A DNA stretch of 64,000 nt from a virus, in the IMG/VR virus record IMGVR_UViG_3300042559_000515, positions 19,631 through 83,630 of that record; one strand, given 5' to 3'. The notes below the pieces were generated by a model, which did not search any database, was not told the DNA's origin, and saw only the letters and a program-made list of their open reading frames with translations. Numbering within the stretch: the stretch's first letter is position 1; each line of letters begins with the position of its first letter. A program made the position numbers and the translations under genes. Below, one piece after another: positions 3,957 to 22,713 of this stretch.

Positions 3957-5021
3957 TTAATCCTTTAACTGGTACCAACCATCTTCCCACAAAGTGAGGA
4001 GACGGTTGAAGTACTTCTCATACATTAAACCAACGGGAGTAAGACCATATCGGTCTTTAGCGTAGGTGCTGATTAACTGGCGGTCTAGTTCTGGCGCCTT
4101 TTTAGCCGCATCTACAAACTCTTGAAGAGTGTGGCAACGGAACCCCGTCACTCCGTCTTGGACAGTTTCAGTAAAGGCGCCCCAGTCGGTAGAGATAACA
4201 GGGGTACCACAAGCCATCGCTTCAATAGCCACTGTTCCAAAAGGCTCCACATAGATTGTTGGTGCAAATAGGGCTATTGCGCCTCCCATGAGTTCGGCTC
4301 TTTTTTCTGTTCCTACAACACCTACATACTCACCGTACTCTGGTGGTACACCCTGCCCAGCAATCACCAGACGCTTCCCTAGAGCCTTACAGACATCTAC
4401 GGCTATCTGGTAGCCCTTGCGCTCAATAAGGCGTCCCATATAGAGATAGTAATCCCCAGGTGTTTCTTGTAATGGAAAATCATCAACATCAATGTAACTA
4501 GGGATGACGGTGTCATAGAACTTACCGTCAAGGGCGTGGGGGTCGGTTACCTTGGAGCCGTAACAGGAGTGCATCCATGCGTAGGACTCAAATACCTTGT
4601 AGGGGGCAAATGAGCCACCATAACCAATACCGAACTCCACACTCAATTCATTTGGGAAAGCGTCAGCAATAGGTTTGGAGGCATAGCCAGCGATAAGACA
4701 AATAAAGTCTTTGTGCTCTAAGCGCTCTTTAATTCCCTTGATGACATTGTTGTTGAAACTAACCCAGTGGGGAAGTGTCCAATCAAAAGAAGCCGCTGAG
4801 TAATGGTTGTCTCCAACTGCAACAAGCCGTTCTTCTTCTGTAATACAAACAATGTGCTCGTCACAAGGGGCTTCATTGAATTCCCCACCATACAGATAGA
4901 CCGTATGACCAAGGTCTTTCATCATGATGCAGAACTTGCGAATCTTTTCTGTATAGGCGCAAGCCGTAAAGTCTTCAGTGGTGTTTGTGTGAGGAAGACT
5001 AACTATGTGGAATCTCATCAA
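3957..5021 (-). CDS. Family 4 glycosyltransferase (GT-B fold)
   Basis: GT-B enzyme transferring a sugar from a nucleotide-sugar donor. The donor-binding half is clear: YLYMGRLIERKG (193-203, with Arg197 and Lys202 that contact donor phosphates), LVIAGQG, and the GT4 signature EPFGTVAIEAMACGTPVI with the paired glutamates at 259 and 267. The N-terminal half is shorter and more divergent. Its position in the tail-fibre module suggests it modifies a virion protein or competes with host surface glycosylation; neither can be shown here. It overlaps the gene upstream by 23 nt. Confidence 0.9.
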   Translation of the reverse strand: MMRFHIVSLPHTNTTEDFTACAYTEKIRKFCIMMKDLGHTVYLYGGEFNEAPCDEHIVCITEEERLVAVGDNHYSAASFDWTLPHWVSFNNNVIKGIKERLEHKDFICLIAGYASKPIADAFPNELSVEFGIGYGGSFAPYKVFESYAWMHSCYGSKVTDPHALDGKFYDTVIPSYIDVDDFPLQETPGDYYLYMGRLIERKGYQIAVDVCKALGKRLVIAGQGVPPEYGEYVGVVGTEKRAELMGGAIALFAPTIYVEPFGTVAIEAMACGTPVISTDWGAFTETVQDGVTGFRCHTLQEFVDAAKKAPELDRQLISTYAKDRYGLTPVGLMYEKYFNRLLTLWEDGWYQLKD

Positions 5022-6084
5022 GGACCTGCTTCTTGTTTTTAAATAATCTTAACTGGTTATGTACATATGGGCTAAGCGATTCATGAATGTGTAATTGACA
5101 ATGCTCAACGATTCTGTGAGTGTCGGACATTTCCCAATCTTCTGGAATTTGATAGTAGTCCCTAAATCGTTGAATACCAGCGTTTAGTTCATCTTGCTCC
5201 GCATTTAAAAGTTCTTGTGTATCCCAAATTCCTGGGTAAAGCACTGACAAGGATGATAGTGAACTACTTGCCATGTTCTTTTTAATAAATTCAATTAGTT
5301 CTGGTTTGTTAGGTTGCACATCCGTAGGACGCATTCGTGCGTTCTCGTTACCCTTAAGGTAGTTAGCAACTTGCATGTCAACTTGTGTATCAATAAAGTC
5401 AAGTGTAAAACCAAAAGTATTTAAAAACTCAGATGCTTTAAGAGCAATTTCTTCGGTGTTGTTAAACGGTTCTTTAGTTACTTCTGACCATTCATACAAA
5501 ACTTTAAACATTTCTGAAAGAGTAAGTCCAGCACAAGGGCTTTCTGCATTATTTTTATATTTTTCACGAACTTCTTCGTCAAGATGTAAATGTAAGTAAA
5601 TAAGATAACCAACACCATGCACTGATAATATTGATTCATATGCAATTATTTTATTAATTGTAGGAACAAGTCGTTCATCTTCTTGTACAAAAAGGTGTGG
5701 ACCATACAGTGTGTTGTCACAACGCCATTCTGCTTCTGGGTCAAAAAGTGCTCTTGAAGAACAAAATCCAAAATACCCTTGTGTTGTGTTGTCAATATCT
5801 GTGTCATAGATGTCAACAACTCGTTCCCAGTAATTTAAGTTTACAATTTCTTCAATATCCCCTTGTTTAGCAATTAAACAATTATTAAAAGCGTGTCTAA
5901 AAGGATGTGGGATAGCAACCACAAGGTGACCATCTTGCATAGAAAACACTTCGGCATCTATAAATGGGTCATCACCAGCAGGGGTACGGCGGTATAAATC
6001 TACGGTAGTTCCTGTAATGTGGTCTAGTACATAAAACAACTTGTGTGTTTTAATGGCATCAATGGTAAATGGTTTAACAAGCAT
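4999..6084 (-). CDS. Hypothetical protein, 361 aa, tail module
   Basis: Soluble, acidic protein without signal peptide or repeats. It begins MLVKPFTIDAIKTHKLFYVL and contains GTTVDLYRRTPAGDDP and several His-rich helices (YLIYLHLHLDEE). No family recognised. Tight placement between the glycine-rich fibre and the glycosyltransferase suggests a role in fibre synthesis or modification. It has a GAGGG ribosome site. Codon use is more A/T-ending than in the plus-strand operon. Confidence 0.75.
   Translation of the reverse strand: MLVKPFTIDAIKTHKLFYVLDHITGTTVDLYRRTPAGDDPFIDAEVFSMQDGHLVVAIPHPFRHAFNNCLIAKQGDIEEIVNLNYWERVVDIYDTDIDNTTQGYFGFCSSRALFDPEAEWRCDNTLYGPHLFVQEDERLVPTINKIIAYESILSVHGVGYLIYLHLHLDEEVREKYKNNAESPCAGLTLSEMFKVLYEWSEVTKEPFNNTEEIALKASEFLNTFGFTLDFIDTQVDMQVANYLKGNENARMRPTDVQPNKPELIEFIKKNMASSSLSSLSVLYPGIWDTQELLNAEQDELNAGIQRFRDYYQIPEDWEMSDTHRIVEHCQLHIHESLSPYVHNQLRLFKNKKQVLDEIPHS

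Positions 6085-7306: not shown

Positions 7307-7307
<1 letters not shown>
6093..7307 (-). CDS. Glycine-rich tail fibre with Fn3 domain and Cys-rich insert
   Basis: Domains in order: short N-terminus (MPIKKGTFASSIGELP), a fibronectin type III-like domain at about 15-110 (ends GLSNGTLYYVRCRAVNG), then a beta and poly-Gly receptor-binding region like those of phage adhesins and glycine-rich host proteins. Residues about 249-316 hold an insert with 15 cysteines, built from repeats CNPF (three copies) and TCYQ/TCYE (four copies). After it the poly-Gly region resumes and ends GGVTFKYFGP. It is the second gene of a fibre cluster; the stop of the 1095 aa fibre abuts its start. Probably the receptor-binding tip. 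Confidence 0.85.
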
Positions 7308-10590
<3,283 letters not shown>

Positions 10591-10594
<4 letters not shown>

Positions 10595-11310
10595 ACTGGG
10601 GGCACAGAGGTTGAAGGCTCTACAACAACCTGCCCCTGCGAAATGCTTGACCAATCACCAGCACTATCTTTTACGAATAGGTCAAATGAATAGGAGCCAG
10701 CAGGGATACCATTGGTGTCAGAGATATGGATTTCTAGCGTGTAACCTGCCTTAGGCGCAATGTACCCACGCTTGTTAGAAGGGCTTAGGGCGATAATAGT
10801 TGACTCACTTGGAGCAGTTGAGAACCAGCGGAGGTCAAGGACGGTGGTTCCAGAAGTGTTCTTTGCCTGCATGAAAGCATCAGTGACAGTCAAGATGTTG
10901 CCATCAGAATCTTTCCATGTGTAGGACTGGCGGAAGTCTGTATATTTCTTGAAACGGATTTCCATAGCGAGAGCGTCCTCCAGAGGCGTAATGTTGTCTA
11001 GGGCAGATACTGTAATTGTACCTTTTGAAATCATTGTTTGGATACCCTTAACAGTTGCAAGGACATCATAAGAAAGTTCACCGAGTGGTAAATCTTGTGT
11101 TTCTTCTGCTGTTAGGCTTAACTCCACCCCACGCTCAGTAGTAATAGTGGTGGTAATCTCGGCTACAGTCAAATCACCTGTCTTGATGTAAGCACGGGCA
11201 TCAGTAGGGGCATACAAACGGCGTGTTCGTCTATCCTTAATGATAAGCAACCGTTCCCACGGTAATCCCCGTGTGAGACTGTATTTAATTGTCTGAGCCT
11301 GATAAGACAT
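10591..11310 (-). CDS. BppU-like upper baseplate/fibre anchor, two tandem domains
   Basis: Two repeats of about 110 residues, each with the strand pattern of BppU-like baseplate domains: a charged opening strand ([15 protein letters not shown] / [14 protein letters not shown]), an A/T-rich middle and a closing strand ([13 protein letters not shown] / [13 protein letters not shown]). These connect baseplate to receptor-binding fibres. Its stop overlaps the start of the long collagen fibre, so the two are translationally coupled, consistent with an anchor and its fibre. The start is preceded by a TAGAAT hexamer at exactly 6 nt and no ribosome site. Confidence 0.75.
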
Positions 11311-11334: not shown

Positions 11335-11502
11335 CTACTCGTCCCCGCCCTTTGCGATACCTGAAACAACATGTACAACTAGGGCTATGCCACTAATCCA
11401 CAGACCATAGGTACGAACCTGTCCAGACAAAGTAATTAGAACTAATGCGGTTCCAGCAAGCGTCCACGCTAAACCTTGCAATTCTTCAAAAAATCTTTTC
11501 AC
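11335..11502 (-). CDS. Holin-like membrane protein, 55 aa
   Basis: GTG start with AGGAGG six bases upstream. After a short MKRFFEELQ helix come two hydrophobic segments (about 11-26 and 34-48) separated by QVRTYG, and a charged end (KGGDE). This is the shape of a small two-TM holin or holin-like membrane protein. The GTG shares one base with the stop of the secreted protein gene upstream, implying translational coupling. Too short to assign by family; a tail-anchoring membrane peptide is an alternative. Confidence 0.7.
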   Translation of the reverse strand: MKRFFEELQGLAWTLAGTALVLITLSGQVRTYGLWISGIALVVHVVSGIAKGGDE

Positions 11503-12953
11503 TATGGCCTCCTACGGGAATCTGACTGGGGACCGCTGGAAGACGAAGAAGATACAGAAACTACTGGTGCCATAAATAATACACCAGTTGCGGCTACTAG
11601 GACCTTGCGCTGTCCGACATTGATGTTTGAACCAATCGGTACATAACTATTAAACTTATTGTCAAACACATTGATGCTTTCTTCAAATTCGGCTCTGACT
11701 TCCTCTGAAGCGCCCTGAACGGCTTCCACCAGTTGTTCTGCTTCTGCGTCAGACAAATCTGACACTTCCACAGCATCAAAGATTTCTGCGGCTTGCTCTG
11801 CGGTCACCGATTGGATGACATCAGGGTTTGTAGCCAGTTCTTCAGCCTCAGCCGCACTAACGCCTTCTTCAATGATGTTGTCCACAGCGGCTTGAATCTC
11901 TTCTTGTGGAAGGTCAGCAATAGCACCCAAAAGAGCCAAAACTTCTGTGTCAACTACTTGCTCAGGGTCTGGTTCAGGGGCTATAGTTGTGGTTGATGGA
12001 ATTTCTAATGTGGTTGTTGTTTCTGGCACTGTTGTCGTTGTGGTTGTGGTTGGAGCCATCGTCACAACTGGTGGCACCGTTGTTGAAGAAGAAGTTGTGG
12101 TCGTTGAAGAAGTGGTGGTGGTCAACTCGGTTGTCGTGGTGGTTGGCGGCACAGTGGTTGAAGGTGCAACTGTGGTTGTACTCGTTGAAGTCGTGGTTGT
12201 ACTCGTTGAAGTCGTAGTTGTTGGTACTGGTAAAGTTAAACCTGACACCTCATTACTCCACCCCGAATAAACGGTAATAGAATCGTTATCAGCACGAACT
12301 TTAAACTGGTATTCGGTATTCGGTGTTAGGTCTTCAACAACTGCGGATGTCTGTATTGACGAAATTGCCCATCCAGTACGCCAGTTGTCATTTGAGAAAA
12401 AAACAGCGTATCTCTCTACCTGAGCATTAGATTGTTCTGGGGCATCCCATGATAAGTAAACCTTATTTTGGTTTGTAGATGTGACAATTAAATTCTGTGG
12501 GGCGTTTAAATACGGGGCAATTGTCGTTGTGGTGGTGCTAGTCGTTGTCGTAGTTGGCTGTTCTGGCACTTCACTAGGTACAGAGTTAGTTTCTAGTGTG
12601 TAAGAAGTGCCATACCACCTATTGGGGTCACCGCAACAAACTCCTGTGCGGAGACGGTATGTACCACTTGTTTGCACATCATAAGAAATAAATGAATCTA
12701 ACCCGTAGTAGTCATCATTTGAAGACAAAACAGTGTTATTACTGTCATACAGCCAAAACATACTGTCAATACCGTATTGCTGGGCATTTGCCCGCACAGT
12801 AAAGGTAGTACCAGACTCCAACTCAAAGTAGAAGTCGTTGGCACCAGAGGTGGTTAAAGTTTCGGCTTTAGCGGGAGAAGACGGATAGAACCCCAGCATT
12901 GTGAGCGTAAGCCACAAAAAACAACTTGTAATCCGCAAACGGGATTTAAGCAT
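11502..12953 (-). CDS. Secreted Fn3 protein with Thr-rich linkers, 483 aa
   Basis: Signal peptide at 1-30 (hydrophobic core after MLKSRLR; cleavage likely after AKA). Next a PPC-like beta domain (about 32-125), a Thr-rich linker, an Fn3 domain (about 150-240), a long Thr/Ser/Pro linker (poly-T runs), an Ala/Glu-rich helical domain (about 335-430) and a basic tail. The C-terminal helical domain and the YVPIGSNINVGQRKV motif look like host surface proteins of freshwater actinobacteria rather than phage proteins, suggesting capture from a host. Exported during infection or displayed on the virion: undecided. Leaderless-type start. Confidence 0.85.
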   Translation of the reverse strand: MLKSRLRITSCFLWLTLTMLGFYPSSPAKAETLTTSGANDFYFELESGTTFTVRANAQQYGIDSMFWLYDSNNTVLSSNDDYYGLDSFISYDVQTSGTYRLRTGVCCGDPNRWYGTSYTLETNSVPSEVPEQPTTTTTSTTTTTIAPYLNAPQNLIVTSTNQNKVYLSWDAPEQSNAQVERYAVFFSNDNWRTGWAISSIQTSAVVEDLTPNTEYQFKVRADNDSITVYSGWSNEVSGLTLPVPTTTTSTSTTTTSTSTTTVAPSTTVPPTTTTTELTTTTSSTTTTSSSTTVPPVVTMAPTTTTTTTVPETTTTLEIPSTTTIAPEPDPEQVVDTEVLALLGAIADLPQEEIQAAVDNIIEEGVSAAEAEELATNPDVIQSVTAEQAAEIFDAVEVSDLSDAEAEQLVEAVQGASEEVRAEFEESINVFDNKFNSYVPIGSNINVGQRKVLVAATGVLFMAPVVSVSSSSSSGPQSDSRRRP

Positions 12954-13063: not shown

Positions 13064-13294
13064 CTAGAGAACTAGGCTAGGTGAACCACCACCATACATT
13101 CCATAATGCATAGCGAATGCAATTCTGTCTTCTTTCCAACCCAGCAAAAGAAGTGTCTTAATAGCGTCTGCTCTAGATGAAACAGTTGCAACGATGTGCT
13201 TTTTCATAAGAGACGCCGCTTCTTCGGGGGTAACAGCGTCATCTGCTCCAGGTGAGTAATAAAGATGTGGTCTAATCACATGTACCGTTGACAT
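13064..13294 (-). CDS. Hypothetical protein, 76 aa
   Basis: Soluble helical protein (VTPEEAASLMKKHIVATV...RADAIKTLLLLGWKEDRIAFAMHYGMYGG). Its start overlaps the stop of the ParB-like gene by one base (TAATG). The C-terminal GWKEDRIAFAMHYG helix with a Gly-rich end is distinctive, but no family is recognised. Confidence 0.7.
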   Translation of the reverse strand: MSTVHVIRPHLYYSPGADDAVTPEEAASLMKKHIVATVSSRADAIKTLLLLGWKEDRIAFAMHYGMYGGGSPSLVL

Positions 13295-13935
13295 TAATAA
13301 TCTCCTACTACGAATTTTGCTCTAAGTGGTTCGCCTTTTATGAGGGCGGCAGTTGCTCGGTGATGTCCACCAAGCAGTCGCAGTTCCCCTGTGTGTGGAT
13401 GAATATACACGAAGGGTGTTTGATTCCCAACATCCTCATGGTCAGCATGGAGGTCTCCATGTTGTCCGTGCTCTAAATAGTGTAGAACTCCACTAGAAGT
13501 AACGGAAGGCTGACTCCCGCTGAGAAATCGTGGGTCAAATTCACGAAGGTTATCTACTGATGGCTTGTCATGAATTACCCTACTTACCAACGAAGGGTCA
13601 TAACTAAATCCGCCCTTATTTTTGGTTGATTGACTCCAGGGGATACCAGTTTTAAGACTGGCGGGTTGACCTTCTCGTACCCATGGGCTTTCTTCATAGT
13701 CAGGATTACGCCTACGAGAGTAATCAAGTTCTGCTGGTGAAGTAGGTTTACCTTGACCAAACAAAGGGTAAATGCTTTTTGACCCAAATAAGTTTTCTAG
13801 GCGCTTTGCGTAGTTTGCCTGATGATATGGGTGGCTCAGGTAAGCCATGTCAATGTATTCACCAAGTTGTGTTTCACTAAGCCTGTTGGTTGACATGGGC
13901 GTAACCTTATCCCTTAGTAAATACTTTCGCAACAT
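13294..13935 (-). CDS. ParB/Srx-like HHR-motif protein, 213 aa
   Basis: The C-terminal part carries the ParB/sulfiredoxin-fold signature: VYIHPHTGELRLLGGHHRATAALIKGEPLRAKFVV, with GGHHR equivalent to the GxxR nucleotide-binding motif. The first 130 residues are a divergent extension. Three smaller HHR or AHR proteins occur at 14537, 16406 and 20590, so this is the largest of a local family. ATG 13896 is an alternative start. A role in DNA binding or nucleotide hydrolysis is inferred from the fold only. Confidence 0.75.
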   Translation of the reverse strand: MLRKYLLRDKVTPMSTNRLSETQLGEYIDMAYLSHPYHQANYAKRLENLFGSKSIYPLFGQGKPTSPAELDYSRRRNPDYEESPWVREGQPASLKTGIPWSQSTKNKGGFSYDPSLVSRVIHDKPSVDNLREFDPRFLSGSQPSVTSSGVLHYLEHGQHGDLHADHEDVGNQTPFVYIHPHTGELRLLGGHHRATAALIKGEPLRAKFVVGDY

Positions 13936-14536: not shown

Positions 14537-14938
14537 TTATGACCCTTTTCTAGGGTCAATACCTAAGTTGAATAAGTGCTTACTGTCATCCCCATACTCA
14601 ATAGGGATAAACATGTCAGGGTTGATGCTAAATGCCGAAGCGACTCGGTGGTGACCATCAGAGATAACTGTTTCATCATTCTCTCGGCTGAAGAACTCAA
14701 TATTGACAGGGTTTTGGACACCCTTTTCTTTGATTGAATCATGGAGGTTAAGGTTGTCATACATTTTTGCGTAAGAAATAGGGTCCATAGACTCTTCAAG
14801 TTTTTCATTTAACAATTCTGGATTTTGTGACATAGGACGCCACTCTTCCAAATCATCACCTGCTGGCATGTCCATTAACTCACGGGCAGTCATAAATAAC
14901 TTGAGTTGTTTTGGATTGAGGTGATTTTTAGCCGCCAT
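14537..14938 (-). CDS. ParB-like HHR protein with NPKQLKLF tag, 133 aa
   Basis: ParB-like core: LHDSIKEKGVQNPVNIEF...ETVISDGHHRVASAFSINPDMFIPIEY, where DGHHR is the GxxR motif. The N-terminus (LNPKQLKLFMTARELM) is nearly the same as that of the 134 aa protein at 16406, and QLKLF fits the beta-sliding-clamp-binding motif QL[SD]LF. It follows a paralogue of the tag family at 14938 with a one-base overlap. DNA binding or clamp association is inference. Confidence 0.8.
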   Translation of the reverse strand: MAAKNHLNPKQLKLFMTARELMDMPAGDDLEEWRPMSQNPELLNEKLEESMDPISYAKMYDNLNLHDSIKEKGVQNPVNIEFFSRENDETVISDGHHRVASAFSINPDMFIPIEYGDDSKHLFNLGIDPRKGS

Positions 14939-15789
14939 TAGTAATCCTCTAAACCAGGAAGTTTGGGTTGTGAATTATTATTTGGCAAATCTTCTTGAGA
15001 AAATTGAGTAGACATCTTAGAACGGCGATTTCTTCTAAGTTCGTCCCTTAGTGCGCTTCTTGCCACACGCACATCTTCATGTGATACCTCACCACGAAGG
15101 TAAATGCCCATGTGCTTTTCTTCAAAAGGTGTGACAATCTTTGGCTCAAACATAGTTGTGTTTACTTGTTCACTTCCAGGATTGTCTTCATTAGGTTGAA
15201 TTAATCCACGCTCTACAGCGTGCTTAGCAATACGACTGCTATGAGGGGACAAGTTTGCTGAGGGGATAATGTCAGAGTTTAAGTGGTCTTGCTTAATGAT
15301 TGACATCAATGTTGGAAAAGTGTGTGTTGCATGCTTATCAAAGTACGCATTAGAAATTTCTAGAGTACCCCTCTGTTCCCCAAACAGTTTCCCAGTATTA
15401 ACCATAGGGTGATTTTTAATAACCTCTACTGCCCTACTAAAACCCTCTGGGTCTGTCCTATGTGTAGCCTCGTCATTGATGACGCTACTGATGGAAGAAA
15501 CATCTTCTTCAGACATGTTGGGGTCATTGAAGTCACTGAGGTGTTTGATTAGTTCATGAGAGACACCAGTGGCTCTACTTAGGTGACGGGTAGGTGCGTA
15601 CTTACCCCGTTCGTTTCCATTGTCCCAGATAGGTCCGTTAAAACCTGGGTTATGGATTACGCCTACTTCACCCCAAGCGTGGCCTGCAAGAGCACCGCTT
15701 CCAACTAAAGCGTCACTGTCAGTTGCAACAGCACGGTAACTCTTCCAACCTGCACCAAAGTTACCGTCTCCCCTAAAGTACCTACCCAT
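14938..15789 (-). CDS. Tag-family paralogue A, 283 aa
   Basis: One of four related proteins (others at 16810, 17637, 18470). Shared features: an N-terminal WKSYRAVAT segment, a central LSPHSSRIAKHAVERGL segment and a C-terminal Q-x-LPG tag (here SQPKLPGLEDY). This copy is the most divergent. No enzyme motifs, signal peptide or membrane segment. Its place in a late-type minus operon, one base from a ParB-like gene and a holin-like gene, suggests virion-associated or late intracellular proteins. Confidence 0.75.
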   Translation of the reverse strand: MGRYFRGDGNFGAGWKSYRAVATDSDALVGSGALAGHAWGEVGVIHNPGFNGPIWDNGNERGKYAPTRHLSRATGVSHELIKHLSDFNDPNMSEEDVSSISSVINDEATHRTDPEGFSRAVEVIKNHPMVNTGKLFGEQRGTLEISNAYFDKHATHTFPTLMSIIKQDHLNSDIIPSANLSPHSSRIAKHAVERGLIQPNEDNPGSEQVNTTMFEPKIVTPFEEKHMGIYLRGEVSHEDVRVARSALRDELRRNRRSKMSTQFSQEDLPNNNSQPKLPGLEDY

Positions 15790-16019
15790 TACTTAGACTT
15801 CTTATCTACTTTATTAAAGACATCGTTGATTTCGTCAACGGTAAGTTTTCCATCATCCATGAAGGCACGAGCAAGACCTTCAACTACAAATGAGACACCG
15901 CCAATACCTGCCATCAGTACGGCTTTCCATAGTGGAATACCAGCAATAGCGCCTGCGCCAACAACGGAAAGACCAGTGGCTGCAAAAGTGGCAAGAATAC
16001 GGAGAAGAATCTGTTTCAC
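15789..16019 (-). CDS. Holin-like protein with EF-hand-like tail, 76 aa
   Basis: Two hydrophobic segments (about 5-25 and 30-48, Ala/Gly-rich: FAATGLSVVGAGAIAG / VLMAGIGGVSFVVEGL) followed by a charged tail FMDDGKLTVDEINDVF, which resembles a calcium-binding EF-hand loop (DDGKLTVDE). Two-TM small proteins of this type serve as holins in actinophages. GTG start at 16019 with TAAAAT 7 nt upstream and no ribosome site. Confidence 0.8.
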   Translation of the reverse strand: MKQILLRILATFAATGLSVVGAGAIAGIPLWKAVLMAGIGGVSFVVEGLARAFMDDGKLTVDEINDVFNKVDKKSK

Positions 16020-16026
16020 AGACTCT

Positions 16027-16032
16027 ATTTTA
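16027..16032 (-). promoter_or_regulatory. Candidate -10 element, holin-like gene
   Basis: TAAAAT, then 7 nt, then GTG. Same arrangement as the other leaderless sites with one extra base. Confidence 0.5.
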
Positions 16033-16034
16033 CA

Positions 16035-16208
16035 CTAACCGCCGTTGCGGTAAAAGCCACGACCAACAAGGTTGACCGATGGGGTGCCGAAGACCTTTTT
16101 CATCTGTTCTTGGCACTCTGGGCAGATAACTACTGGCTCTTCGGCATGAATTGACCGACTCTCCTCGTGGGAGTGGTCATTTGAGCATTTGTACTGATAT
16201 GTAGCCAT
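16035..16208 (-). CDS. FmdB-type zinc ribbon protein, 57 aa
   Basis: Begins MATYQYKCSNDHSHEE and continues VVICPECQEQMKKVFGTPSVNLVGRGFY, the layout of FmdB/CxxC-CxxC regulatory zinc ribbons (one Cys replaced: KCSND instead of CxxC). Phages often encode such proteins between structural genes. The ATG immediately follows the TAA of the gene upstream, so it is coupled. Confidence 0.8.
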   Translation of the reverse strand: MATYQYKCSNDHSHEESRSIHAEEPVVICPECQEQMKKVFGTPSVNLVGRGFYRNGG

Positions 16209-16391
16209 TTAGTCGTCTTCAAATTTATTTTTCTGGAACAGGTACGCAGGGTAGGAATCCATAAAGTCATCCGTCTCGTTTTCACGGCGCTCACGAAGAA
16301 TCTGTTTCTGCTTGCGCTTTTTGTGCTCATTGTCAAACTGTGGACTTAATTTCTTTTGACGAAATTCGTTGAGGTCTACTACATCACCCAT
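16209..16391 (-). CDS. Hypothetical basic protein, 60 aa
   Basis: Very charged (RQKKLSPQFDNEHKKRKQKQ, RERRENE), probably one long helix; the N-terminus MGDVVDLNEFRQKK is like that of small phage proteins between tail and lysis genes. A TAGAAT hexamer lies 8 nt before the ATG. No family recognised. Confidence 0.7.
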   Translation of the reverse strand: MGDVVDLNEFRQKKLSPQFDNEHKKRKQKQILRERRENETDDFMDSYPAYLFQKNKFEDD

Positions 16392-16399
16392 ATGTTCTT

Positions 16400-16405
16400 A
16401 TTCTA
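16400..16405 (-). promoter_or_regulatory. Possible -10 element (8 nt gap)
   Basis: TAGAAT, then 8 nt, then the ATG of the 60 aa basic protein. Weaker match to the 6 nt rule. Confidence 0.4.
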
Positions 16406-16810
16406 TCAATAAGTGTCGTAGTGGTAGTCTGAGTCGTCAAAGTGTGGCAAATCCACTTTATGGTCTGCCTGTGTTTGGTAGTCATAGTAATTAGCATAAC
16501 CAGGACCGACTTCATAATTTACAGGAATGAACTGGTCTGGGTTCAAACGATGTTGTGCGGCAATACGGTGGTGCCCGCCAACAATATACTGGTCCTTAGG
16601 GTGTAGAGAAACAGGAATCTGTACACCTGTCTCCTTGATGCTGTCCATCAAACCATTTTGTTCCGCTTCATCAGCCTTGCGTTCCCACAGTTCATCTGTG
16701 GATTCACCAGGAAGGTAGTCACCGTCAATTGGTTCAAAATCTTTGACGATTTCTCGTGCAGTCATAAACAGTTTTAACTGATTTGGATTTTCTTGTTTTT
16801 TCCGAGCCAT
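16406..16810 (-). CDS. ParB-like HHR protein with NPNQLKLF tag, 134 aa
   Basis: ParB-like core with GLMDSIKETGVQIPVSL and YIVGGHHRIAAQHRLNPDQFIPVNY. The N-terminal tag ENPNQLKLFMTAREIV matches the paralogue at 14537 almost residue for residue although the rest differs more, so the tag is under separate selection. The C-terminus is His/Asp/Tyr-rich. It overlaps tag-family paralogue B by one base, repeating the pairing seen at 14537/14938. Confidence 0.8.
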   Translation of the reverse strand: MARKKQENPNQLKLFMTAREIVKDFEPIDGDYLPGESTDELWERKADEAEQNGLMDSIKETGVQIPVSLHPKDQYIVGGHHRIAAQHRLNPDQFIPVNYEVGPGYANYYDYQTQADHKVDLPHFDDSDYHYDTY

Positions 16811-17637
16811 TACACGAATCCTTCCATTCCAGGCAAAAACTGGTCACTCAACCCTTTTCTAGTGACAGGAGTAGTGTTTCTAATCTTAGGCTTGCGGAGC
16901 ATCTCACGAACATCCTGTCGTGCGGCACGCACCATATCAGGGTGAATGGCTTCATCGGGTTGGTCATTACCCCACACATTGTTAGCAAACTCACTACCTA
17001 CAGAACGATTATGTTGTCTGATGGTGTTTGTTACTTCTGCGTTAGGGTTTGCGGGGTCTGTTTCAACTAAACCCTTATCTAGTGCTGTTTTAGTCAATTT
17101 ACTACTATAAGGAGATAACGAACCAGACGCAATTATTTTTTCTGCACCTAAATCACGCTTGGCAAGGGCGGCAAGGGTAATAGCAGTGTGGGGCATACTT
17201 GGGTCCGCAACCATGTTGTCAATTTGTATAGACGATGGTATTCGTTCAAATAGAGTTTCTGGTTGAAAGTATTTGTTACCCTCTATGTGTGGCTTCATTG
17301 CCTCTTTATCAAAACCCCCACTACGAAGAGCATGTAGTATCTGGTTTGCGGAATCTTCGTGACCAGTCCAGTCATCTTCTGGAATACTTTCAATTTTGTC
17401 CGAAATGTGTCTTAGATAATTATTACTTAAACCTGTCACATTGTATGGGTCACGGTAATTAGTTTTTGCACTATTATCAAAAGGGACAACATACTTTGAT
17501 GGCGAGTGTGACACACTGATACTTGCGTATGGTCGGCGCTTTTCTACACCACTAAGTGTTTCTACCTCAAATTCATTACCTACAGCGTTATATGTAGACA
17601 TGTCTTCTTCATGGTTTTTAAAGTATTCAATTGCCAT
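16810..17637 (-). CDS. Tag-family paralogue B, 275 aa
   Basis: Closest to paralogue D at 18470: both share FQPETLFE, PSSI, DPSM-HTA, AKRD-AEKIIAS and LSP-SS segments. The C-terminus reads TRKGLSDQFLPGMEGFV, the same tag as in C and nearly the same as D. Soluble, no known domain. Three of these genes lie in tandem with one-base TAATG junctions, indicating duplication followed by divergence while the tag stayed fixed. Confidence 0.8.
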   Translation of the reverse strand: MAIEYFKNHEEDMSTYNAVGNEFEVETLSGVEKRRPYASISVSHSPSKYVVPFDNSAKTNYRDPYNVTGLSNNYLRHISDKIESIPEDDWTGHEDSANQILHALRSGGFDKEAMKPHIEGNKYFQPETLFERIPSSIQIDNMVADPSMPHTAITLAALAKRDLGAEKIIASGSLSPYSSKLTKTALDKGLVETDPANPNAEVTNTIRQHNRSVGSEFANNVWGNDQPDEAIHPDMVRAARQDVREMLRKPKIRNTTPVTRKGLSDQFLPGMEGFV

Positions 17638-18470
17638 TAGACAAAACCTTCCATGCCTGGGAGGAACTGGTCGCTAAGTCCTTTGGCTGTCACTGGCTTG
17701 GGATTGCGCTTGCGACCAAGAATCTCACGCACAGCCTCTTTACCTCGGATAACACTTGTATCAGGGATAGGTGCTCCTTTTTCACGGATAACATCTGCGT
17801 ATTCACTTGACATGGTGTGACGAAGTTGTCTTTGCTCCTCATAGTCACCAGCGGTGCTTTCTGCGCTTGGGTTACCTGAATGGGCACTAACGGGTAGCCC
17901 ACGCTTAATGGCGTTTTGTGTCAGTTTGCTACTGAACTTTGTCAGTGAACTATCTGCCACAAATGGCGCACGGTTCCCCTCATCGTAGGCAATACCAAGA
18001 AGGTTGATACCTGCGGCATTCATGGAGGGGTCAGAGTACATTCCGTTAATGTATGTCTTTGCAGGTTTTGATTCATAAAACAAATGTTCTGGTGTAATGT
18101 GGGGGTTGGTGCGTGCCTGCTCCACCGCCCAATCCATTGTCTTACCGTGGCTTGGATATCCTCTAAGAACACCAAGCGCACGCATAGCATCCATTTTTTC
18201 AGGGTTATCGGCTATATCTGGTTCGTCAAGTAATGAACGATACCTTTTGGTCAGGTATTCGGGGTGGAGACCAGTCTGACCACTGTCATCAGCGTAATTA
18301 GGACCTTGTTCATCATCAAAAGTAGGGGTGTACTCTGCAAACTGGTGATATGTACCTACATTTGCATTCGGCACCGCACCAGTCTCAGGTTTTGGTGTAC
18401 CTAATGCTCTGTAAAACGACTGAAACCCACCAGGGTAGTGTTGGCGAGATTCAAGAATATATTCAGGCAT
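17637..18470 (-). CDS. Tag-family paralogue C, 277 aa
   Basis: N-terminus MPEYILESRQHYPGGFQSFYRALG; central LTKFSSKLTQNAIKRGLPVS; C-terminus TAKGLSDQFLPGMEGFV, identical over the last 14 residues to paralogue B. The middle is more diverged than between B and D. No catalytic motif seen. The constant tail on variable bodies suggests a common binding partner, for example a packaging or scaffold protein or the sliding clamp; this is inference. Confidence 0.8.
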   Translation of the reverse strand: MPEYILESRQHYPGGFQSFYRALGTPKPETGAVPNANVGTYHQFAEYTPTFDDEQGPNYADDSGQTGLHPEYLTKRYRSLLDEPDIADNPEKMDAMRALGVLRGYPSHGKTMDWAVEQARTNPHITPEHLFYESKPAKTYINGMYSDPSMNAAGINLLGIAYDEGNRAPFVADSSLTKFSSKLTQNAIKRGLPVSAHSGNPSAESTAGDYEEQRQLRHTMSSEYADVIREKGAPIPDTSVIRGKEAVREILGRKRNPKPVTAKGLSDQFLPGMEGFV

Positions 18471-19327
18471 CAGACAAAGCCTTCCATACCAGGTAGAAAC
18501 TGAGCGCTGAGACCCTTCTTTGTGACAGGCGTGTTATTTCGGGCTGGTGTGCCACGCTGACCACGAAGCCATCCACGGATGTCATCCCTAGCACCCTTTA
18601 CTTCTTCTGGAGAAATTGGTGTCTCTGGCTGGTCCATACCCCAAGGGTTATCTTGTCTTTTTACCCTGATAGTCCGCTTGCTCTTGTCAATGTCATTTGT
18701 AATCTCTGCTTCGGGGTTATCCCGATGTGTTTCAACTGGCAGACCTCTGGTTACAGCATTCCTAACCAATTGGCTACTAAATGGAGATAGGTCATCAGAT
18801 GCAATTATCTTTTCTGCCTTTTGGTCACGCTTTGCAATAGCGGACAAAGTCATGGCTGTGTGAGCCATACTTGGGTCAGACACCATATTTGTAATCTCTA
18901 TAGACGATGGAACCTCTTCAAACAAAGTTTCTGGTTGAAAATGGGGGTTACTCCGCATCTGACCCCGTACATATGCCTTACTGACAGGGTCTGACATGTG
19001 CATGATGCCGATGGTGTGCATGGCATCGTCATCATAGCCAGTCCAGTTATCTTCACCTTTTTTTGTAAGTTTGTCTGCCAGATGACTTACATAATCATCG
19101 CTGAGACCAGTGTCTGTGTAGGAGTCACCACCAATATTTGTGTAGGGTACGACAAACCTTCCTGGCCTGTGCTTTACATTAATTGTTGCAAAAGGTCGCT
19201 CTTGTAAGTCACCTGGGTCATCAGGAAGTCCAAAGAATGGGTCAGGCTCTACATCAACAGGCTTTCCTAATGCGGTGTAGGAAAAATTACCTTCGTAATC
19301 TGTGTTCTTAGAGTAATCAATTGCCAT
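18470..19327 (-). CDS. Tag-family paralogue D, 285 aa
   Basis: N-terminus MAIDYSKNTDYEGNFSYTALG; centre matches B closely (HFQPETLFE, SSIEITNMVSDPSM, KAEKIIASDDLSPFSS); C-terminus KKGLSAQFLPGMEGFV. The last gene upstream in the tandem block. Stop/start overlap by one base with both neighbours. Function unknown. Confidence 0.8.
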   Translation of the reverse strand: MAIDYSKNTDYEGNFSYTALGKPVDVEPDPFFGLPDDPGDLQERPFATINVKHRPGRFVVPYTNIGGDSYTDTGLSDDYVSHLADKLTKKGEDNWTGYDDDAMHTIGIMHMSDPVSKAYVRGQMRSNPHFQPETLFEEVPSSIEITNMVSDPSMAHTAMTLSAIAKRDQKAEKIIASDDLSPFSSQLVRNAVTRGLPVETHRDNPEAEITNDIDKSKRTIRVKRQDNPWGMDQPETPISPEEVKGARDDIRGWLRGQRGTPARNNTPVTKKGLSAQFLPGMEGFV

Positions 19328-19728
19328 TACGAGTTCTTTAGACGGCGGTTGACGAAATCTGCCTGCTCTTGAGGTAAATCAGGTCCAGCGGTTGGTCTAC
19401 GAGTTGTGACAAGGTTTCCTGACTCATATGCCTTCATAGCAGCGCCCATCAGTGCAGAACCAACGCCTTTTCCACGGTGCTCTGGCTCAACTTCAAGACT
19501 TTCAACTGAGTTTGGTGCAAGAGTGGGGTTCATGGAGTAATAAGCATCACCCGTTCCATGCAGTACCAGACGACCCATCACATCTTCGCTTGTGTAACTC
19601 CCACCATCATTAGGAAGTGCAGTCAATGTGGTGTACATAGGGTAGCGACCGTCCTCAAAAGGTAGTCGTTCATCAGAATGCTCTAATGAAATTTGAAACT
19701 GATTGAGGTTGAGATGCTTCTTAGCCAT
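19327..19728 (-). CDS. GNAT-family acetyltransferase, 133 aa
   Basis: The acetyl-CoA-binding motif is plain: VESLEVEPEHRGKGVGSALMGAAMKAYESG (beta4, R-G-x-G-x-G loop and alpha3). The domain is short and lacks clear motif B after it. The N-terminus HLNLNQFQISL resembles the LNP-x-Q tags of the ParB-like neighbours. The target is unknown; a modification of a host or co-injected protein is possible. Leaderless-type start with TAAACT at 6 nt. Confidence 0.85.
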   Translation of the reverse strand: MAKKHLNLNQFQISLEHSDERLPFEDGRYPMYTTLTALPNDGGSYTSEDVMGRLVLHGTGDAYYSMNPTLAPNSVESLEVEPEHRGKGVGSALMGAAMKAYESGNLVTTRRPTAGPDLPQEQADFVNRRLKNS

Positions 19729-20061: not shown

Positions 20062-20388
20062 TTAACTCCTCTTTTGAGTCCAGTGTTCACCTGCACGGTG
20101 CTGATTAATGACTCCTACACCGTCCTTGTGGGTGGCAACATCTTCCAAAATGTCTCCAGAGGGGCTGAAAACGCTACGAAGACCACCAACTGGGGTGTGT
20201 TCTAGTCCATAACCGTCTACTGCAACGAATCCAACACCCCATTTAGCGTCAGAATCGGCTTCATAAGGGGAAAGACCTGCATCATGGAGCACATCATGAC
20301 CAATAAAGCGTTCTCCAGCGACCGTCATCTTCTCACGGCGGTGTGCAGACTTCAGTAATGCGTTGAATTGGTCGGGGTTAAGTGCCAT
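20062..20388 (-). CDS. Hypothetical protein with LNPDQF tag, 108 aa
   Basis: Begins MALNPDQFNALLKSAHRREK, sharing the LNP-x-Q opening with the ParB-like and GNAT neighbours, followed by a mostly beta body (DAKWGVGFVAVDGYGLEHTP). No known domain. Start preceded by TAAACT at 6 nt. Confidence 0.7.
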   Translation of the reverse strand: MALNPDQFNALLKSAHRREKMTVAGERFIGHDVLHDAGLSPYEADSDAKWGVGFVAVDGYGLEHTPVGGLRSVFSPSGDILEDVATHKDGVGVINQHRAGEHWTQKRS

Positions 20389-20589: not shown

Positions 20590-20997
20590 TTAGTCTCGTT
20601 CGTGGAGATAGGTCTCATCTTCACGATGCACATGTGCGGGAAGGCGTTCCGACTGCGCCTCTGGGTCGTTCACAGCCTCTTTGTAGGTCACAGGGACCAT
20701 CCATGAGGGGTCAATGTCATGTGCGGCGGCAATACGGTGTGCACCATTGACAATACTGGTCTGACCACGGCTCCTGCCAAGACGAATGGGGTTGACCATC
20801 CCCTCTTTACGCAGGCTCGTATGCAGTCCTGACTTATATGCTTCATCGCTTTTGCGATTCCAGAATAATTCTTCAGAAGGATGACCAGACCTAGTGACAT
20901 CTTTTGTGGTCATTTCAAGGTCTGAGCCTTCAAGTTCTTCACGGAGCATGCTGGCTGGCATAAAGAGTTGTTCGTTGAGGTGATGCCAAGTAGCCAT
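20590..20997 (-). CDS. ParB-like AHR protein, 135 aa
   Basis: Core LHTSLRKEGMVNPIRL...TSIVNGAHRIAAAHDIDPSWMVPVTY: NGAHR replaces the GGHHR of its relatives. The N-terminus HLNEQLFMPASML is a shortened form of the NP-x-QLKLFMTA tag. First gene of the leftward block after the divergent region; TATACT lies 6 nt before the ATG with no ribosome site. Confidence 0.8.
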   Translation of the reverse strand: MATWHHLNEQLFMPASMLREELEGSDLEMTTKDVTRSGHPSEELFWNRKSDEAYKSGLHTSLRKEGMVNPIRLGRSRGQTSIVNGAHRIAAAHDIDPSWMVPVTYKEAVNDPEAQSERLPAHVHREDETYLHERD

Positions 20998-21003
20998 CTA
21001 TCC

Positions 21004-21009
21004 AGTATA
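21004..21009 (-). promoter_or_regulatory. Candidate -10 element heading the leftward block
   Basis: TATACT, then GGATAG, then ATG of the gene at 20997. It would start the 13-21 kb transcript. Confidence 0.6.
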
Positions 21010-21150
21010 GGGCTATCTAGGTGTGCAGGTGATTGTCCCGATTCCTGGTTAGGGCTATGTGGTGCGTGGGTGGTTTAGGGCTTAGTCGGTCCTACCCCCC
21101 ACCCTGTCCGAGGGTACCACTTAACCATGGGGGGTGTCAAGCCCTGAGCA

Positions 21151-21223
21151 TATGACATTCGTCACATGTGCCCATCGTCACACCCCCGACCATGTGACCT
21201 TCGTCACAGTGACCTTTGTCACA
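21151..21223. promoter_or_regulatory. Three CRP/GlxR-like palindromes
   Basis: TATGA-N6-TCACA (21151-21166), TGTGA-N6-TCACA (21193-21208, an exact match to the CRP/GlxR consensus) and AGTGA-N6-TCACA (21208-21223). The spacers are CATTCG, CCTTCG and CCTTTG, so the whole repeat is conserved. A further half site (CATCGTCACA) is at 21173-21182. They lie between the leftward and rightward gene blocks and may tie expression to host cAMP-receptor-type regulators, or be iterons for a phage protein. Confidence 0.65.
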
Positions 21224-21245
21224 CCCCGTTTACTTGACATCCAGG

Positions 21246-21268
21246 AAACCCTTACACCGCAAGGGTTT
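21246..21268. repeat. Hairpin repeat AAACCCTT, copy 1
   Basis: AAACCCTT-ACACCGC-AAGGGTTT, a perfect 8 bp inverted repeat followed by GCGG. Related copies at 21325 and 21566. No T-run, so not an ordinary terminator. Confidence 0.6.
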
Positions 21269-21324
21269 GCGGGGTACTCATCATAGTTCCCCCCCAATGT
21301 CAACCCCCCCTACTCCCCAGTAAA

Positions 21325-21341
21325 CCCTTATGGCATAAGGG
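21325..21341. repeat. Hairpin repeat, copy 2
   Basis: CCCTTAT-GGC-ATAAGGG, a perfect 7 bp inverted repeat preceded by AAA as in copy 1. Confidence 0.6.
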
Positions 21342-21565
21342 AATCCTCTCAGACGCTCTCTAAGCCCCTCTACCCATGAGTAACCCCCTCTAGGCACCTA
21401 GCACCCATTTTGCGCATTTAAACGGCTCTACGGCGATTCTGCATGTTTATGCAGGGCTTCAAATACCCCTGATTTCATTGACTATTTGAAGATTGAGCCT
21501 GTCAAAAACACCAATGAAAACGGGCTTTTTGGTTTTGACATCGCAGATATTCCATACATCCCATG

Positions 21566-21590
21566 AAACCCTTGAGCCATAAGGATTTGC
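21566..21590. repeat. Hairpin repeat, copy 3 (imperfect)
   Basis: AAACCCTT-GAGCCAT-AAGGATTT followed by GCG; one mismatch in the stem. The same flanks as copy 1 (AAACCCTT...TTTGCG). Confidence 0.5.
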
Positions 21591-22014
21591 GCCCATTTGG
21601 CACATATTTCATACAGAAAATGATGCATGAACATGCACTACAACTGGGGCTATGGAATCAGGGGCACACACAAGGGGGCGAGGGGGGCAGGTATTCCCCA
21701 CACCTCCGATGCCCAAGGCACAATCCCGATGCCCCAGCACACCCCTGAGCCTCCAGCACCTACTCCCCCCTCAGACCACACAGAAGAGCCTTCAGAGCGT
21801 TCAAATACCCTCTCTGCCACCTGCATACCCTCCCCCTGTCTTCCCCCTATCAGAGGCTCTCCCAGCACGGTTTGGGCGCCCTTTTCCTCACCCCCCTATC
21901 CCTCGGAGCCTTGCCATATATGGGCAAAAAAAGAATCAGAAAAAACATTTGAAAACTATTGACATTCCGAAATGCCCTCTGCGAGACTGGGGGTGAGGGG
22001 CGCTTCGGCGCCTC

Positions 22015-22037
22015 GCTCTTTGAAAACTGAAGATTCC
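22015..22037 (+). promoter_or_regulatory. boxA-like antitermination element
   Basis: GCTCTTTGAAAACTGAAG resembles bacterial rRNA boxA (core GCTCTTT), immediately after a UUCG hairpin at 21997-22014. A second TTGAAAATTGAAGATTC copy lies at 22162-22178. It could recruit Nus factors to the transcript of the long plus operon. Confidence 0.35.
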
Positions 22038-22713
22038 GCCGTGTTCTTGATGGCTGGGCTTTGCCCATTCCATAGCGCCCTGTTCCTGTCCTGCCCTAAG
22101 TCCTTGGGCATTGCAGTTCAGATTCAGTTGCCTCCACGGTTCATGGAATCCAGTCAGTCCCTTGAAAATTGAAGATTCTCCGCCAGCAGAGCAAACGCTC
22201 GCCACGCTGGTTTACGGTCAGAGCACTTGACCCAGTTCATACGAAGCCCTTGGCAGGGTGAGAATCAATCAGATATGCGCCACGGTCGGCAAGGGGTGGC
22301 AACCCCTCCCCAGTCAGACCGTGGTTATTGCGAACTAGCAGGTTCTGTGAACCTCCTCGGCTCCGCTAAGTCCACTCGGTGGATACTGGCGGATGACCCA
22401 CTGACGCTAAGTCCAACGCTGACACTGCATTGTGTTGACCCCATAGTGGGTCACTTGCTCCAAGGAGCCTTTGCAGGACAGGCAATGGTAATGCGAATCG
22501 GATGGAGGGTTCCGTTCATCAAGGTCACCACTTCGGTGTGTGCGCCAATTACGAACGAGGGCAGGTGTCAAGGGATTGGCACGACACACAGAACAGAGGC
22601 TCTGCGGAGAAGGACTCAACTAGCACCGACTACACGGCACACGGTTCGCAACCCACACCAGTTGACGCTCAAGGTCAGTTGGAAAGCATCAGCACATGGT
22701 GTGGGGTCGCAAC

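Follow-up and report, generated by a model that had tools for sequence, protein, structure and literature searches.

What holds a short peptide nearly constant at the ends of four phage proteins whose bodies have diverged? The proteins are encoded in a 64,000-nucleotide stretch (hereafter the window) that covers positions 19631-83630 of an 83,630-base IMG/VR phage record. All four open reading frames claimed in the initial annotation, here called paralogues A to D, are present on the minus strand (Table 1). Paralogues A, B and C follow one another directly in the same orientation, each stop overlapping the next start by 1 base (TAATG/TGATG). As such overlaps also join them to a GNAT-like gene upstream and a ParB-like gene downstream, the five genes form one coupled run. 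Paralogue D, set apart from the others by a ParB-like gene, a short ORF and a membrane-protein gene, echoes this arrangement with a ParB-like partner of its own. Six 1-base overlaps in total (minus strand, 19728-16406 and 16019-14537) link the series GNAT-A-B-C-ParB and holin-like-D-ParB, and a family member adjoining an N-tagged ParB-like gene was seen again in L176, L177 and L006.

Table 1. Cassette genes and neighboring features of the window.
Feature	Position	Strand	Length (aa)	Observations
GGHHR-containing protein	13294..13935	-	213	ParB-like by motif only, no family hit; weak LSETQL near N-terminus
ParB-like (DGHHR)	14537..14938	-	133	N-terminal tag NPKQLKLFM, 14891-14917; start overlaps paralogue D stop
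Paralogue D	14938..15789	-	283	Split tag: motif A MSTQF, 15001-15015; motif B QPKLPGLEDY, 14941-14970
Small hydrophobic protein, holin-like by inspection	15789..16019	-		Untagged; recurs in related cassettes
ParB-like (GGHHR)	16406..16810	-	134	N-terminal tag NPNQLKLFM, 16763-16789; start overlaps paralogue C stop
Paralogue C	16810..17637	-	275	C-terminal tag KGLSDQFLPGMEGFV, codons 16813-16857
Paralogue B	17637..18470	-	277	C-terminal tag KGLSDQFLPGMEGFV, codons 17640-17684
Paralogue A	18470..19327	-	285	C-terminal tag KGLSAQFLPGMEGFV, codons 18473-18517
GNAT acetyltransferase-like	19327..19728	-	133	PF00583, 24.9 bits, above cut-off; N-terminal HLNLNQF, 19696-19716
Small cassette protein	20062..20388	-	108	N-terminal LNPDQF, 20365-20382
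ParB-like	20590..20997	-	135	N-terminal HLNEQLFM, 20959-20982
Tail-region protein	4999..6084	-	361	QLRLF 18 residues before C-terminus; among the few clamp-like ends outside the cassette
Collagen-like Gly-X-Y protein	7307..10654	-	1115	Downstream of the cassette
Secreted-looking Thr-rich protein	11502..12953	-	483	Directly downstream of the cassette; counterparts adjoin relatives' cassettes
Region without convincing genes	~21000-22200			Divides the leftward late cassette from rightward genes

The tails of paralogues A-C read KGLS[DA]QFLPGMEGFV, and that of paralogue D reads MSTQF...QPKLPGLEDY. Body identities are 47, 28 and 29% among A-C and 20 to 26% between these and D, whereas the tails of A-C are 88 to 94% identical. 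Over the last 15 aligned residues of A-C, 14 are identical, compared with 26% overall, and none of 100,000 column permutations reached that concentration. The tail codons differ synonymously at most degenerate positions with the residues unchanged; constraint therefore acts on the protein, and the likeness does not stem from recent gene conversion.

The description of the C-terminus as nearly invariant was borne out among A-C but does not extend to distant homologues of the family, whose tails drift to QLSLWDE, QQSLFGEDQ, QLQLEGFE or QLKLPGI. Further tail forms among homologues are QLSLWDD, QLTLPGI, QMKLPGID, QPQLPGMEDK and QPRLPGM. The conserved object is therefore a motif of the Q-phi-x-L-phi type rather than KGLSxQFLPGMEGFV. 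In a small hold-out, two relatives found with patterns that did not cover the tail (L217 and L218) both ended in QPRLPGM, as predicted. The full family alignment was too divergent to serve as a query for scanning IMG/VR. Three distant homologues (L213:3389-5771, L178:8964-12131 and L214:5395-6932) have an extra internal QLVMF, QLAMF or QMAMF besides the C-terminal tag; in the window group, ETLF or TELF stands in its place.

The LSPxSS core segment that the paralogues had been said to share is real, and the earlier statement that their bodies belong to no known family stands. No family match was obtained from Pfam, PHROGs or the PDB sequence set, Foldseek comparison of two paralogue models with the PDB gave no significant fold match, and no homologue was present in 50,697 cultured-phage records. 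A structure search of BFVD with a paralogue model returned two matches, both uncharacterized proteins of uncultured phages. In an AF2 model of paralogue C (20 relatives in the input; mean pLDDT 81, pTM 0.71), the last 25 residues are disordered, the tail having a pLDDT of 40 to 50. The second half of the model, a strand-helix-strand-helix arrangement, recalls GNAT, with one weak BFVD match to NAT_SF (E 0.88) and no significant PDB match. We read this half, which includes LSPxSS, as possibly a degenerate GNAT-like fold, a reading from the model that profile comparison does not support: the paralogue bodies had no Pfam hit, and hhalign to the cassette GNATs gave a probability of 0.3%.

The paralogues have neighbors of other kinds. 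The cassette shares its strand with the structural (late) genes, lies upstream of the tail and terminase genes and is made of separate ORFs, mostly of 80 to 340 aa. Its body types are ParB-like, GNAT and ADP-ribosyltransferase-like (ART), with metallopeptidase-like bodies in relatives; many of the family scores fall below curated cut-offs, and the ART assignment comes from weak ART-PolyVal and Arr-ms matches. The N-termini of these unrelated neighbors carry NPxQLKLFM, HLNxNQF, LSSQF or GPQF. We described the recurring elements as motif A, [LIM][SN]x(1-2)Q[FL], and motif B, Q[LMP]x[LM][FWPE], and compared the 30 terminal residues of 123 nonredundant cassette proteins from 11 related phage stretches with those of 257 other proteins of the same phages. 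Motif A was found in 48 cassette proteins and 10 others (p 7e-18) and motif B in 41 and 4 (p 2e-18), p values that are descriptive because the ORFs were called mechanically and the expressions were written after the data had been seen. Shuffled cassette proteins gave means of 2.9 for motif A and 0.8 for motif B.

The tag is N-terminal on ParB-, GNAT- and ART-like bodies and C-terminal on the paralogue family. Tag peptides include KGLSDQFLPGMEGFV, KFDQPQLPGMEDK, NPKQLKLFMTA and SEQLSLWDE, and NLSSQFHVTHS has motif A only. Where both motifs stand at one end of a cassette protein, motif A precedes motif B, both at N-termini (ISKQF...NPEQLQMFM, LSKQF...NPDQLTLPGV) and at C-termini (HLSPQF...QLPGMEGF, ISSQF...LPGMEGFV, MSTQF...QPKLPGLEDY). 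The tails of paralogues A-C are the fused form of the two motifs, LSxQF-LPGMEGFV, and paralogue D is no outlier; its tail is a split version of the tag. In four long relatives that lack a family match (G018, G019, G022 and G025), only scattered tag-like ends were seen (QPSLFDE, NNPDQLSLF, EQPELPGL).

The initial annotation had proposed a docking or packaging signal on variable effectors and a search for it at the C-termini of other phage proteins. The tag stands at the N- or C-termini of many nonhomologous cassette proteins, and the proposal is well supported in its general form: motif A, motif B or both stand at an end of 74 of the 123 cassette proteins and of few of the 257 others, the tail is predicted to be disordered, and the neighbors are of effector type. 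We are confident that a shared terminal docking tag exists and is under selection.

By inspection and similarity, the phage encodes a tail sheath, a capsid protein, a scaffold, a portal and a terminase, and its replication genes comprise a family A DNA polymerase, DnaB, a primase, RecA and SNF2 helicases. The phage record has no match to the DnaN family, and with Pol A polymerase, DnaB, primase and RecA among its genes, the phage is unlikely to have a clamp user of its own. The major capsid protein and terminase are approximately 59 and 46% identical, respectively, to those of the Streptomyces phages BRock and GiJojo (Borockvirus), the latter with a contractile tail; unlike in the present phage, the tagged cassette was not found in the regions read of these cultured relatives. 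Capsid relatives also occur in Streptomyces and Terracoccus genomes and in two MAG contigs labelled Chloroflexi and Armatimonadota, and from the capsid and terminase relatives the hosts are probably actinobacterial. At least 586 IMG/VR contigs have a related capsid gene; among the contigs examined, only some had the cassette. Next to the terminase in L002 (16378-17286) is a DUF7178 protein (Pfam E 1e-14), and G006 has a protein of similar appearance near its terminase (L051:2145-3101).

Motif B recalls the peptides that bind the bacterial sliding clamp. The consensus published for these peptides allows two forms, Q-phi-x-[LM]-[FL] and Q-phi-x-[LM]-x-[FL]; they have acidic or carboxyl flanks and are located in loops, in C-terminal tails or, as in Hda, in a disordered N-terminus (PMC11139829). 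An actinobacterial precedent, the QLPLWG motif of mycobacterial ImuB (PMC10421592), is resembled by the QLSLW tail form, and transposases of mobile elements and the toxin SocB also use the clamp motif (PMC4549789, PMC9690074). The published consensus, unaltered, occurred at the termini of 14 of the 123 cassette proteins and 3 of the 257 others (p 2e-5). It fits the N-terminal tags of ParB-like proteins (QLKLF, QLRMF, QLQMF) and a few C-terminal ones (QLELPF, and QLSLF in G025). Exact QLxLF alone is too rare to be significant (2 of 123 versus 1 of 256). One small ORF beside a terminase ends exactly in QLSLF (NNPDQLSLF), and another cassette protein ends in QLELPFD. The tags also share the disordered tail and the acidic or carboxyl flank of clamp ligands, the stretch from the Q to the end having a mean charge of -0.95. 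Judged by sequence, the tail variation (QLSLWDE, QQSLFGEDQ, QLQLEGFE and QLKLPGI, with QLSLF elsewhere) looks like the spectrum of bacterial beta-clamp-binding peptides and would fit a sliding-clamp peptide at least as well as a portal or capsid partner. The window's paralogue tails themselves (QFLPGM, QPKLPGL) do not fit the published pattern; the LPG[MI], LEGF and QFLPGM forms have an extra glycine and miss the pentamer and hexamer, which only a minority of the tags satisfy.

The best explanation in our view, one that we hold tentatively and at somewhat less than even confidence, is a modular tag whose B half would work as a clamp-binding motif on effectors of the injected type. The four paralogues are part of a cassette, encoded on the late strand, of small proteins of effector type with a common terminal docking tag. 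In that tag, element B would act like a peptide that binds the bacterial sliding clamp, DnaN. Once the protein had been delivered or expressed late, its flexible tail would slot into the host clamp at the peptide pocket, concentrating the attached body at DNA or the replisome. We infer DnaN as the partner, an effector role for the proteins and any delivery in the virion. Besides the window tails, two observations stand against clamp docking: motif A, found on many ART- and GNAT-like proteins without motif B, is not a clamp motif, and its distribution suggests another or an additional partner; moreover, the upstream NP or [DE] context is conserved beyond what a clamp peptide needs.

Other origins and destinations of the tag were weighed against this one. 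Tails alike through chance, tandem duplication or gene conversion, that is, through recent copying or DNA exchange at gene ends, would suit the tandem order with 1-base overlaps, but this is extremely improbable: body identities of 20 to 47%, synonymously diverged tail codons and the presence of the motif on nonhomologous proteins and in distant phages rule out recent duplication or conversion. The more serious possibility, to which we nevertheless give limited credence, is a signal for packaging cargo into the virion, in which motif A, with or without motif B, would be recognized by a component of the prohead, scaffold, portal or baseplate and the cargo ejected with the DNA. The bodies that bear the tag are of the domain types seen in injected polyvalent proteins (ParB, weak ART, GNAT, metallopeptidase), the cassette shares the structural-gene strand upstream of the tail and terminase genes, hardly any other protein of these phages is tagged, and proteins of many unrelated kinds bound for one place would need just such a common tag. 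Packaging would explain the domain repertoire and the late-strand location as well as clamp docking does, whereas the drift via QLSLW, QQSLF and QLSLF matches the clamp pocket, the analysis turned up no receptor, and we know of no packaging signal of this form.

The two ideas may also be combined, with motif A as a virion targeting signal and motif B as a host-clamp docking peptide, used successively. Motifs A and B are found singly as well as paired, and in the pairs at either terminus A comes first; in many proteins, however, they share one Q (HLNPKQLKLFM, LSDQFLPGM) and may therefore be a single motif, and such successive use seems improbable. Less probable still is docking to a different hub of host or phage, such as RNA polymerase, an adaptor of a protease, or a chaperone or antitoxin-like partner that is shared, as might be suggested by motif A being no clamp motif and by ParB-like and paralogue genes being neighbors in several phages. 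Because the window tails are noncanonical, motif A is not accounted for by the clamp and packaging would suit the domain repertoire and late-strand position equally well, clamp docking is preferred only tentatively, with packaging a real but doubtful contender and the combination of both a poor one. On the widest reading, which we consider unlikely though conceivable, a two-part address tag at either protein end, common to a whole lineage of uncultured phages, would direct dozens of unrelated single-domain effectors to the virion (motif A) and the host clamp (motif B).

Should the tag prove to be a common address, every ORF that bears it would be a probable delivered or clamp-docked effector, and an anonymous cassette in a large phage lineage would become a searchable effector set. 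Such phages would deliver many effectors by tagging separate proteins rather than fusing domains, a plug-in alternative to polyvalent proteins. The tags would also be new natural clamp-binding peptides for the site targeted by griselimycin, the peptide site of the sliding clamp.

Among known systems, the tags are like the clamp-binding motifs of Hda, Pol II, Pol IV, ImuB, IS transposases and SocB in being short Q-phi-x-[LM]-phi peptides in disordered N- or C-terminal tails, often next to an acid or the free carboxylate and grafted onto unrelated proteins. They differ in that many have LPG[MI] or LEGF with an extra residue, a conserved upstream element A and an NP or [DE] context, and the cassette bodies, whose clamp binding is putative, are not replication proteins. 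In the capsid-targeting sequences of T4, through which Alt and the internal proteins are loaded to be ejected with the DNA, a short terminal signal likewise serves diverse proteins, including an ART; the T4 proteins are packaged, whereas packaging here is putative, and the cassette tag differs in sequence and is found at either terminus. For the polyvalent proteins of phages and conjugative elements, virion delivery has been predicted (Iyer et al. 2017, PMC5512222). As a set, though not in the four paralogues themselves, the cassette matches their domain kinds, being phage encoded with a ParB-like, ART, GNAT and metallopeptidase repertoire, mostly at weak family scores; unlike polyvalent proteins, which fuse 2 to 15 disparate domains in one polypeptide, it consists mostly of separate small proteins with a common terminal tag.
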